Assembly (NCBI RefSeq): GCF_025854275.1
Contig: NZ_CP107567.1
Location: forward strand, 3,472,001-3,536,000
Direction: 5' to 3'
Source of the DNA: Streptomyces peucetius
GTDB taxonomy: Bacteria > Actinomycetota > Actinomycetes > Streptomycetales > Streptomycetaceae
DNA: 64,000 bases
Positions 2,806 through 6,643 of this stretch are shown here, piece by piece (position 1 is the stretch's first letter; every line of letters begins with the position of its first letter). Made by a program: the position numbers and the translations under genes. The notes under the pieces were generated by a model. The model worked only from the letters and a program-made list of their open reading frames with translations, had not been told where the DNA came from and made no database searches.

Positions 2806-3498
2806 TCAGCCCTTGGCGACGAAGACGTGGGACGCCACTTCCGCCTCCAGCTCCGCCGCCTCACCGCTGCTGCCCACGAGCACCCCACCCGCGGACTCCG
2901 TCACGCTCACCACGGAACCGGGCTGCACGCCCGCCCGCCGCAGCGTGTACATCAGCTGCGCGTCGGTCTGGATCGGCTCACCGATCCGCCGCACGACCAC
3001 CGTCTTGCCGTCCACCCCCGGGTCCAGCTCGGCCAGCGAGACCATGCTGTCGTCCAGGAACGGATCGGCCTCGGCCTTCTCGCCGAGCTCCTCGAGACCC
3101 GGGATCGGGTTCCCGTACGGCGACTCCGTCGGGTGCCGCAACAGCTCCAGCACCCGGCGCTCCACCGCCTCACTCATCACATGCTCCCAGCGGCACGCCT
3201 CCGCGTGGACCTGCTCCCACTCCAGGCCGATGACGTCGACCAGCAGGCACTCGGCGAGCCGGTGCTTGCGCATCACGCGCGTGGCCAGCCGGCGGCCTTC
3301 GCCCGTCAGCTCCAGATGCCGGTCGCCGGCCACCGTCACCAGTCCGTCGCGCTCCATGCGCGCCACGGTCTGGCTGACCGTCGGACCGCTCTGGTCGAGC
3401 CGCTCCGCGATCCGGGCCCGCATGGGAACCACACCCTCCTCCTCGAGCTCAAGGATGGTGCGGAGATACATCTCCGTCGTGTCGATCAGTCCGGACAT
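2806..3498 (-). CDS. dmdR1: Iron-dependent repressor DmdR1 (DtxR/IdeR family)
   Basis: Fe2+-activated repressor of siderophore and iron-uptake genes. It has 230 residues, matching the DmdR1 length I remember. Domain order: winged helix-turn-helix (about 1-70), dimerisation/metal domain (about 70-140), and a C-terminal SH3-like domain ending SHVFVAKG. Metal ligands known for DtxR are at identical positions: Met10, Cys102, Glu105, His106 (second site) and His79, Glu83, His98 (first site). The ATG at 3498 is preceded by GAGGGG; an in-frame upstream ATG at 3552 lacks family homology. Divergent from the SIS gene, with a DasR-like site between them. Its terminator has been split by the insertion sequence. 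Confidence 0.95.
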   Translation of the reverse strand: MSGLIDTTEMYLRTILELEEEGVVPMRARIAERLDQSGPTVSQTVARMERDGLVTVAGDRHLELTGEGRRLATRVMRKHRLAECLLVDVIGLEWEQVHAEACRWEHVMSEAVERRVLELLRHPTESPYGNPIPGLEELGEKAEADPFLDDSMVSLAELDPGVDGKTVVVRRIGEPIQTDAQLMYTLRRAGVQPGSVVSVTESAGGVLVGSSGEAAELEAEVASHVFVAKG

Positions 3499-3631
3499 AC
3501 GTGCCCCTCGATGCTGTGACTTGAAATCAGTCGTCCGCTGGCCCCGCCTCAATTCTTGCGCATACCGCCGACAACCGTGCGCGCCCGGTCCGGACCGTAT
3601 TGACAGCGCAATGGTCCAGACCGCAACGTGA
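2813..3631 (+). other. Antiparallel reading frame over dmdR1 (possible adm)
   Basis: A 272-codon plus-strand frame runs across all of dmdR1, and a second frame opens at 2599-3519. In S. coelicolor an antiparallel gene adm opposite dmdR1 was reported to make protein and affect siderophore and antibiotic production. The frame here is Ser/Thr/Arg-rich, as expected for a shadow of GC-rich coding DNA, so nothing in this sequence proves it is expressed. I cannot say which frame corresponds to Adm. Confidence 0.25.
3610..3625. promoter_or_regulatory. DasR-responsive-element-like site
   Basis: Seen: AATGGTCCAGACCGCA, 12 of 16 positions equal to the DasR consensus as I remember it (ACTGGTCTAGACCACT), including the GGTC/GACC core. 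It lies 112 bp upstream of dmdR1 and 63 bp upstream of the SIS gene. Direct repression of dmdR1 by the GlcNAc regulator DasR is published for S. coelicolor; conservation of the site here is the inference. Confidence 0.6.
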
Positions 3632-4838: not shown

Positions 4839-6188
4839 TCAGTGCTGCGCCAGGTCCAGCGCCGACGCCGTGAGCGCCGCGACGCTCTCCGCATGGACCG
4901 CGTCCGGGCGTTCGAACGCCGGGCGCGCCGCGCCGCGGAGGAAGGTGAGGACTCCGACGGTGCGGCCGCGGCTGCGCAGGACCGTGCACAGGGCGTGCGC
5001 CGCGTCCCGCGGCCACTGGCGGCGCTCCGCCCAGTCGCCGGCCGCCCCCTCCGCCCCCGCGCTCGCCCGCACGGAGCCGACCCGCTCCACCGCCTGGAAC
5101 GCCGGGTGCCCGGGCGCGTAACGCACCGGCAGGCCGCCGCCCTCGACGCCCGCGCTGGGGCCCGGCTCGCCGACGGGCGACGCGGCGGCCCGCACCAGGC
5201 GCTCGCCGTCGTCCTCGGCCACGTCGAGCAGCACATGGTCGGCGAAGCCGGCCAGGGCGAAGTCGAGGTAGACGGTCGCCGCCTCCAGCGGGTCCTCGCA
5301 CTCGGCGGCCGCGCGCCCCGCCCGGTGCAGTTGACCGGCCCGGAACCGGAGCCGGTTCGCCTCCTGCTCCGCCAGCTTGGTGTCCGTCACGTCGTGGAAC
5401 AGCCACCCCACCCCGAGCGGAACCGGTTCCTCCGCGAGCGGGGAGGCCAGCCGGAGGAACCCGCTGCGCCAGCAGCGCCGTTGCTCCTGCCCGCCCGCCC
5501 CGGCGACGACCACCCACAGGTCCGCAAGGCCCCGCGGGGGGCCTTCCGCCAGCACATGGTGCAGCGCGCCCTCCAGTTCCTCCACGCCCTGGGCCAGCAG
5601 TTCGCCGAGCGGACGGCCCAGCACGGAGGAACGGCCCGCCCCGAGCGCACGGGCCGCCTCGCCGTTGACGACGGCGGGCCGCAGGTCCACGTCGACCAGT
5701 ACGACACCCCACGACGCGTCCTCGAACAGCGCCTCGCTGAGCGCGATGGACCGCTCCAGGTCGATCTGGGCGTGCACCTCGCTGAACGCGCAGTACACCC
5801 CGGCGGGCCTGCCGTCCGCTCCGAGCACCCGCGCCGACTGGGTCCGTACGAGCACCCGCCCGCCGTCCTTCCGCAGCAGCGCGAACTCGTGCACCTGGCG
5901 CCCCGGGGTGTCCATCGCGGCCATCAGCCGCCCCTGGACCTCGCCGGCGTCGGCGCTGCGCACGGCCCAGCCGGCGAAGCCCCGCCGTCCGACGGCCTCG
6001 CGCGCCGACCAGCCGAGGATTCGCTCCGCCTCGCGGTTCCAGTGCGTCACGGTCCCGCGGGCGTCGAAGGCGCACAGCGCCGCGTCCATCCCGTCGAGCA
6101 GCGCCGCGAGCAGATGCGCCCCCTCCGGCTCCGGCTCGGGCCCGCCGGCGCCGGGCGCGTCGGTCGTCTCACTCCTGGAAGCACTCAT
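4839..6188 (-). CDS. PAS-PAS-GAF sensor protein without an output domain
   Basis: Soluble 449-residue sensory protein. Seen: a first PAS domain (about 20-130: LDGMDAALCAFDARGTVTHWNREAERILGWSA), a second PAS domain (about 135-250: LFEDASWGVVLVDVDLRPAVVNGEAARALG, closing with GVGWLFHDVTDTKLAEQE) and a GAF-like C-terminal domain (about 270-445, ending ALTASALDLAQH). Streptomyces proteins with this front end usually carry a SpoIIE-type PP2C phosphatase or a kinase; here the protein stops after the GAF domain, so it may signal by partner binding or be a shortened member. The ATG at 6188 follows a G-rich stretch; frames upstream show no domain. Convergent with the SIS gene across the repeat array. 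Confidence 0.8.
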   Translation of the reverse strand: MSASRSETTDAPGAGGPEPEPEGAHLLAALLDGMDAALCAFDARGTVTHWNREAERILGWSAREAVGRRGFAGWAVRSADAGEVQGRLMAAMDTPGRQVHEFALLRKDGGRVLVRTQSARVLGADGRPAGVYCAFSEVHAQIDLERSIALSEALFEDASWGVVLVDVDLRPAVVNGEAARALGAGRSSVLGRPLGELLAQGVEELEGALHHVLAEGPPRGLADLWVVVAGAGGQEQRRCWRSGFLRLASPLAEEPVPLGVGWLFHDVTDTKLAEQEANRLRFRAGQLHRAGRAAAECEDPLEAATVYLDFALAGFADHVLLDVAEDDGERLVRAAASPVGEPGPSAGVEGGGLPVRYAPGHPAFQAVERVGSVRASAGAEGAAGDWAERRQWPRDAAHALCTVLRSRGRTVGVLTFLRGAARPAFERPDAVHAESVAALTASALDLAQH

Positions 6189-6361
6189 CCCGGGACCCCC
6201 TGCAGGACTGTCCACGTGCGCCGATGCCTGTCCCCATTCAACTTCAACGTGACCCAGGACACACACGGTTCCCGTAAATCCCCCGCGCCCGGATCCGGCC
6301 GGCGGCCGAGGCGCCGCCCTGCCGCCCATGAGGCCCGCGAGAAATGCGTGCCTTAAATCGC

Positions 6362-6391
6362 TTGCCTCCGTTCCGAGCCGCTTCTTAGGGT
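6362..6391 (+). promoter_or_regulatory. HrdB-type promoter of the small leader-like RNA
   Basis: Seen: -35 TTGCCT (6362-6367) and -10 TAGGGT (6386-6391) with 18-bp spacing, a good match to the Streptomyces housekeeping consensus TTGACN / TANNNT. Expected start of transcription is near 6398. Confidence 0.6.
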
Positions 6392-6423
6392 GTGGGCACG
6401 CTCAGAAAGGAGGTGATCCGGAA

Positions 6424-6462
6424 GTGATTTCTTACCGGACAAGCGAGGTGGCTGCGGGCTGA
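6424..6462 (+). CDS. 12-residue leader peptide MISYRTSEVAAG
   Basis: GTG start at 6424, TGA at 6460-6462. The Shine-Dalgarno core GGAGG (6409-6413) is 10 nt upstream within a perfect anti-16S match, making this one of the strongest ribosome binding sites in the window. The peptide has no run of a single amino acid, so it does not look like an amino-acid-sensing leader; sensing of ribosome state or of a ribosome-targeting drug would fit better. Expression is not shown. Confidence 0.5.
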   Translation: MISYRTSEVAAG

Positions 6463-6521
6463 CGCCTGCCGTCGCACTCTGTGCACCTCGGCAGTCGTCT
6501 GCCGAAACCCAAGCAGTCACC

Positions 6522-6592
6522 CGACCCGTGGGCCGCCGGTAAGTCCGGCCGGCTCCCTCCGTCCGGACGGAGGGACCAAGGCCCACGGGTCG
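6522..6592 (+). terminator. Nested terminator hairpin
   Basis: Outer stem 6522-6534 with 6580-6592 (13 bp, CGACCCGTGGGCC and complement) encloses a 22-bp perfect palindrome 6554-6575 and a short GCCGG/CCGGC stem, followed by TCTGCGTTTCC. It lies between convergent units and may also stop transcripts of the exporter operon. Confidence 0.75.
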
Positions 6593-6643
6593 TCTGCGTT
6601 TCCGGGCCCTTCCACGAACGGCCTCGTACGGCGTCGAACGGCG

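Follow-up and report, generated by a model that had tools for sequence, protein, structure and literature searches.

What might an RNA that carries the parts of a ribosome-sensing leader do when no gene follows it? This question is raised by a locus in a 64-kb stretch of Streptomyces peucetius DNA (the whole stretch analysed, here called the window). The original prediction described there a promoter, a complement of the 16S rRNA 3′ end, a 12-codon ORF, three mutually exclusive arms and a terminator, and left the choice between a free small RNA, a ribosome decoy, a small-protein gene and a leader whose target gene had been lost. The analysis described below indicated that the RNA is real, conserved and part of a known family; the reading as an attenuator that has lost its gene is out, and the reading in which the ribosome operates the RNA is strengthened. 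We give a probability of roughly 0.5 to a stand-alone, ribosome-operated structured small RNA.

The RNA Locus and Its Family

An Rfam search of the 64-kb window at gathering cut-offs returned a single family, RF02471 (Ms_IGR-5), catalogued as an actinobacterial sRNA of function unknown. The window RNA spanned the full length of the model (1-184) and scored well above the cut-off, which makes it a member. The main elements of the locus are as follows.

6362..6391 (+): promoter-like boxes, TTGCCT at 6362-6367 and TAGGGT at 6386-6391, with similar boxes, by eye, upstream of relatives
6398..6598 (+): the RNA, RF02471 Ms_IGR-5, 84.2 bits against a cut-off of 45
6404..6419 (+): putative docking site, AGAAAGGAGGTGATCC, a 16-nt complement of the 16S rRNA 3′ end, matching the host's own 16S exactly
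6522..6592 (+): terminator hairpin in predicted folds, with a side loop holding GTCC at 6543-6546

Folding showed the window strand to be more stable than its own shuffles (z -5.98). The terminator claimed originally has a 13-bp, GC-rich stem (6522-6534/6580-6592), but it lacks a U-run and a consensus scan for terminator-like sites gave 0. Likewise, the promoter boxes resemble those of relatives by eye, but the consensus scan for promoter-like sites gave 0. The RNA is flanked by an ORF for a PAS/GAF protein, 4839-6329(-), and by minus-strand ABC-transporter genes, the nearer of which matched Pfam ABC2_membrane_3 below the cut-off only. The gene next to the RNA sits on the opposite strand, and a same-strand downstream gene is absent. 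The window also encodes a DtxR-type iron-dependent repressor at 2806-3552(-) (Pfam Fe_dep_repress and Fe_dep_repr_C).

Family members are transcribed in other Streptomyces, according to the literature. The accessible part of PMC8079986 gives RNA-seq support for a member in Streptomyces lividans, and that of PMC8780764 treats the Streptomyces avermitilis member as an sRNA transcription unit. According to the accessible part of PMC4974804, the Mycobacterium abscessus and Mycobacterium smegmatis homologues carry ribosome-protected reads, and its authors caution that footprints appear on non-coding RNAs too. The original prediction would have been contradicted by a lack of any transcript and of conservation in relatives; what was found, as far as these partial sources go, is transcription in S. 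lividans and S. avermitilis, together with an ORF and a pairing partner conserved in several groups. The literature found on Ms_IGR-5, with most subscription papers out of reach, makes no mention of a mini-ORF, of a complement to 16S rRNA or of family members beyond Actinobacteria, nor do the accessible parts of PMC6429828 and PMC11133741. Two named sRNAs were considered as the identity of the window RNA and dropped: scr5239 has its own Rfam entry in the S. lividans table, and the literature search on scr4389 yielded nothing usable. A Mycobacterium tuberculosis name for the locus was not found in the literature searched.

A Complete Complement of the 16S rRNA Tail

The 16-nt anti-16S sequence of the original prediction is indeed the exact complement of the 3′ end of the host 16S rRNA. 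When its 14-nt core, AAAGGAGGTGATCC, was searched with at most one mismatch, seven occurrences were found in the 8.05-Mb genome, all of them exact: the window locus and six sites that are 16S 3′ ends. The predicted duplex between the docking site and the 16S tail amounts to -33.5 kcal/mol, compared with -7.7 and -9.5 kcal/mol for two short Shine-Dalgarno (SD) strings. The docking block was invariant or almost so in alignment A1, which comprises 51 of 206 unique members. In four loci (L264, L299, L300 and L312) GGGGGTG replaces GGAGGTG at the docking site, with ORF and H1 letters retained. A docking hairpin, H0 (SD GUCC with ORF GGAC), appears in folds but includes 0 double-change pairs, and was retained as an alternative only.

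A Mini-ORF with a Conserved Stop Position

The 12-codon ORF was confirmed, and three of its features are relevant here.

6424..6462 (+): mini-ORF of 12 codons, GTG..TGA, VISYRTSEVAAG, with its stop TGA at 6460-6462, conserved in relatives
6435..6440 (+): CCGGAC inside the ORF, predicted to contact GTCCGG at 6543-6548, a contact that covaries in relatives
6445..6451 (+): internal SD-like GAGGTGG, the last G at 6450 lying 9 nt before the stop; GAGGTG is invariant in A1

ORFs were counted by script at 306 loci representing 285 distinct RNAs; L087, L113 and six rRNA loci were excluded, and L122, L145 and L262 were skipped. A short ORF was called in 280 of the 285 distinct RNAs. Counted from the G of GAG in GAGGUG, the stop began at +15 in 265 RNAs, at +14 in 11, at +16 in one (L104) and at +4 in three, where the script's choice of start or a second GAGGTG is responsible. 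Hand reading placed the stop at +15 in all eight of the RNAs left over, namely the five uncalled (L057, L082, L232, L233 and L239) and the three at +4 (L067, L144 and L238). Members had been picked regardless of the stop, although both the pattern scan and the model favour GAGGTG. All three stop codons were used in the 280 called ORFs (TAG 212, TGA 45, TAA 23), with ATG (110), TTG (93), GTG (51), CTG (13), ATC (6), ATT (5), ACG (1) and ATA (1) as starts, and 244 of the 280 were 12-15 codons long. By these counts the mini-ORF is conserved, which is a new observation. Over the same stretch a stop occurred in the +1 frame in 177/280 and in the +2 frame in 242/280. By hand reading, several loci (L059, L061, L062, L064, L067, L069, L070, L072, L073, L088, L144 and L149) have near-cognate starts (ATT, ATC, ACG, CTG) behind a very strong SD, with the ORF at its usual place.

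The peptides commonly end in E-V (E in 265 and V in 266 of 280). The 11 RNAs with a stop at +14 (L090, L094, L095, L263, L264, L275, L279-L282 and L285) come from four families of the phylum and have near-identical RNA letters read in another frame, giving peptides like LGDHCGGGSS or LLKTSGGDCR, or SGGGCS- or GGGSS-like ends. Their stop still adjoins the same RNA position despite the changed frame, and L104 is a further, weaker case of frame-shifted reading. Since the frame-shifted families keep the RNA and the stop position, it can be argued that translation itself matters, not the peptide. The conserved unit, as far as sequences tell, looks to be the RNA together with the site where translation ends, with the peptide secondary. 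This use of another frame in 11 distinct RNAs of four families was the reason for disfavouring a peptide function as the main reading.

The End of the ORF Forms One Strand of a Covarying Helix

The original prediction overlooked a pairing of the last codons of the ORF with GCAGTCACC. The strands involved, and the three arms that had been proposed instead, are listed here.

6447..6455 (+): 5′ strand of H1, GGTGGCTGC, inside the ORF (covariation and folds)
6457..6459 (+): 5′ strand of P2a, the last sense codon (covariation)
6501..6503 (+): 3′ strand of P2a (coordinates read from the sequence)
6505..6512 (+): AAACCCAA, counterpart of a conserved AAUCC internal loop (alignment)
6513..6521 (+): 3′ strand of H1, GCAGTCACC (covariation and folds)
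6466..6504 (+): the three arms, at 6466-6471, 6489-6494 and 6499-6504 (predicted folds)

H1 pairs the codons around GUG-GCN with ..CAGUYCACC immediately 5′ of the terminator, and P2a pairs the last sense codon, in many members with the U of the stop, with the strand preceding AAUCC. RNAalifold recovered both helices unprompted, in a set of 14 pairs, six with double changes, of which the first three are a small hairpin within the SD. For H0, H1 and P2a together, 91.7% of the cells of A1 were paired, compared with 84.9% after shuffling and 22-44% in slid controls; the double-change cells numbered 56 against 17.7 ± 3.2 in shuffles, a value reached in 0/500. Two of the five covariation measures were weak, namely the pairs with a double change (6 against 4.2, reached by 49/500 shuffles) and the pair types (24 against 20.8, reached by 22/500), and the shuffles ignore the relatedness of the sequences. 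Outside the anchor letters, the first variable nucleotide was paired in 176 of 181 RNAs (shuffle maximum 116) and the second in 92/181 (shuffle maximum 73), and the third was not above chance. These 181 are the 206 unique RNAs minus 25 whose 3′ strand misfits the search expression, and some of the latter pair differently by hand, as do CGAGGUGGCCG and CGGCUGCCUCG in Bryobacterales. According to these alignments, the last codons of the ORF contribute a strand to a covarying helix left unpaired in the Rfam model, which is a new finding.

A second contact, between GGAC(N) of the ORF and (N)GUCC in the terminator side loop, also covaries. Among 216 distinct, anchored RNAs from 253 loci, an exact 5-mer complement was present in 124, compared with at most 69 when partners were swapped, and the flanking bases were paired in 101 and 91 of 134 RNAs, compared with at most 72 and 68. 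Where the core had changed, the 4-mer complement was kept in 43/68 RNAs and lost in 25/68 (random mean 25.3, maximum 38 in 1000 pairings).

Folded from 6398, the window RNA forms H1 with a pair probability of 0.93-0.94. With 6 extra 5′ nucleotides the minimum-energy fold is without H1, so the true 5′ end matters for the fold. H1 was mostly formed in the predicted ensembles of 124/181 RNAs. To imitate a terminating ribosome, each RNA was masked from its 5′ end through the ORF and on to a point 14 nt beyond where the stop codon begins. The mean unpairedness of the CAGNCACC strand then rose from 0.15 to 0.55 in the 181 RNAs (medians 0.04 and 0.56), and in 106/181 the strand before AAUCC gave up the ORF end for a local partner; these figures compare masked with free folds, without a null model. 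The minimal form read by hand in two Tsukamurella loci (L122 and L145) lacks the variable domain; the end of its ORF pairs directly with CGGCGG..CCACC, leaving the stop codon in a loop.

The three arms (CTGCCG, CGGCAG, CTGCCG) do exist and are mutually exclusive in predicted folds, arms 1 and 2 pairing in the free RNA and arms 2 and 3 when the ORF is masked. However, the exact 6-mer triple was found in 10/48 Streptomyces-type loci, so the arms do not belong to the conserved core. They are a local elaboration; what is conserved of the switch is another helix.

Distribution and Gene Context

RF02471 was found in 38/41 close-kin genomes and in 70/396 genomes of the phylum, 35 of them above the cut-off, and in none of the 14 control genomes. 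When named genomes were scanned with a degenerate pattern, at least 119 loci were obtained. Among the 119 matches listed, 18 were titled outside Actinomycetota: eight Acidobacteria types, two Nitrospirae, two ‘Deltaproteobacteria’ and six single titles (Planctomycetota, Nitrospinae, Zixibacteria, Sumerlaeota, Spirochaetia and a plain ‘bacterium’). Bin titles may mislead, as L154, titled Acidobacteriota, resembles the Acidimicrobiia form, and L113 was discarded by eye as a chance match within a gene.

A model, R1, was built from A1. With rough E-values, and with some training genomes included in every set, it matched 114/296 genomes of the host's own phylum, 45/217 of the phylum of an Acidobacteria bin, 9/198 of that of a Spirochaetia bin and 5/218 of that of a Deltaproteobacteria bin, L262 among the last looking like chance. 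Of 13 named genomes 12 matched, and eight of the loci had been in training; R1 matched the non-training loci L131, L157, L195 and L197 and missed L104 (Planctomycetota). There was one match per genome except in G035, where the second is below the cut-off, and G263, with 7% contamination. These comparisons indicate that relatives are present in Acidobacteria, Spirochaetia and ‘Deltaproteobacteria’ bins and, singly, in further groups, which is new.

The next ORF beside relatives was on the opposite strand in 117 cases and on the same strand in 72, with noisy ORF calls. Ten neighbouring ORFs were checked with Pfam; no gene was common to all, and two were without a family. The neighbours included Aminotran_4 and THAP4-like proteins (a Mycobacterium), a THAP4-like protein (an Actinomadura), an ABC transporter (Nocardioides), TauE (Acidobacteria), a beta-lactamase-like protein (Spirochaetia) and a histidine kinase with a laccase-like protein (Deltaproteobacteria). 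That no gene is common to all contexts argues against a cis-regulator. A gene for a THAP4-like heme-binding protein adjoins the RNA at L119, 3496-4152(-), and at L115, 6919-7413(+).

A mobile or phage origin was considered and rejected. The search for one found no plasmid match, and one viral contig contains the search pattern, yet scores 13.8 bits. A good copy (69.8 bits) is present at L319, 1493-1603(+), in an unannotated ‘UNVERIFIED’ Bacteriophage sp. record from human feces, which we suspect to be mislabelled bacterial DNA.

A Possible Ribosome-Operated RNA and Its Alternatives

The docking site and an ORF whose final codons supply the 5′ side of H1/P2a, the helix that closes the 3′ domain, provide the starting point of a switch model. 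A ribosome would dock at the anti-16S site, translate 12-15 codons in most members and stop at a fixed distance from the internal SD-like GAGGUG. There, the terminating ribosome would open H1/P2a and the ORF-loop contact, freeing the CAGUYCACC strand that adjoins the terminator; in the absence of translation the RNA would close. In this way the RNA would report translation as a structural state. The mechanism up to the opening of the helix is inferred from comparison and structure prediction. As a guess only, the freed, anti-SD-like UCACC strand might act in trans on mRNAs, or its release might alter the lifetime of the RNA. The internal GAGGUG, which is complementary to 16S CACCUC and ends 9 nt ahead of the stop, or 8 nt in shifted RNAs, may help to keep the terminating ribosome in place. 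Its GA takes no part in the pairing of H1 but does not vary in A1, which fits such a role; the loss of the G or GA in two shifted RNAs, L282 and L285, does not.

Other explanations use parts of the same evidence. The RNA could be a decoy whose anti-16S site binds 30S subunits to sequester or report them, ORF translation being a by-product; a 16-nt complement that is unique in the genome outside 16S genes, forms a duplex of -33.5 kcal/mol and is (near-)invariant in A1 would suit it, but a decoy would not account for the conservation of the stop position, for a closing helix built from ORF codons or for the ORF-loop contact, and we consider it unlikely. A trans-acting base-pairing sRNA with an untranslated ORF would account for ORF letters conserved for structure only, as they serve H1 and the ORF-loop contact, and for a C-rich 3′ strand adjoining the terminator. 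It does not predict that all three stop codons are used at a single position and in two frames, or other frames blocked in 177/280 and 242/280 RNAs, and is quite unlikely.

The high frequency of C-terminal E-V (265 and 266 of 280 peptides) could point to the messenger of a functional micropeptide. However, E-V overlaps paired and SD-like letters, the remainder of the peptide varies, and the frame-shifted families end in GGGSS-like sequences instead, which makes a messenger role improbable. Very improbable is the reading proposed originally, a ribosome-sensing attenuator with a lost downstream gene. A leader ORF, exclusive arms and a terminator are present in cis, and some relatives have a next ORF on the same strand, but the neighbouring or downstream gene is inconsistent, and the RNA is nearly always single-copy and stands alone in several groups. 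That no gene follows is not a sign of a lost target, as the next ORF of relatives lies on either strand. Of the original suggestions, the analysis supports a small free RNA that has a complete anti-16S sequence, a mini-ORF that looks translated and a fold that would be altered by a ribosome.

It is a more tentative idea, doubtful as it stands, that the ribosome-operated RNA represents a new and ancient class of RNA switch with translation itself as its input. If so, a complete anti-16S site would recruit ribosomes to a free RNA and the mini-ORF would set its fold; frame and peptide would be free and the stop fixed relative to the internal SD; and the RNA would serve as a readout of ribosome or termination/recycling activity, with an action in trans in its open state. 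The sRNA, filed as actinobacterial, seems to belong to a far broader class that has at its core a mini-ORF interlaced with the RNA's own fold. If translation does operate the RNA, bacteria possess, in a stand-alone RNA, a sensor for ribosome activity. The 16S complement, the start codon, the closing helix and the stop position can each be tested by single mutations.

Comparison with Known Systems

The Rfam consensus of RF02471 draws the CAGUCACC strand unpaired. The family cut-off was reached by 3/20 more distant loci, and R1 finds more members; the partly accessible material found on the family describes no role for an ORF. The Caulobacter sRNA CC2171 (RF01867) has a 5′ GAAAGGAGGUGAUCC in common with the window RNA. 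Its model scored 19 bits at 6397-6475(+), below the cut-off of 75 and with 104 inner positions outside the comparison, and gave 0 matches in the host genome of the window at E 0.001. Judging from the shared sequence, CC2171 may be a distant relative.

Leader-peptide attenuators of the erm and trp type have a leader ORF, alternative helices and a terminator. The window RNA shares with them a leader ORF and, by prediction, exclusive helices and a terminator; attenuators have a regulated same-strand gene downstream, whereas the window RNA is without one, and relatives have no consistent gene there. Dual-function sRNAs such as SgrS and RNAIII are small RNAs that also carry an ORF, and a conserved ORF inside a small RNA is common to them and to the window RNA family. 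Unlike in SgrS and RNAIII, the ORF codons of Ms_IGR-5 appear to form a strand of the core helix, and both peptide and frame are changeable.
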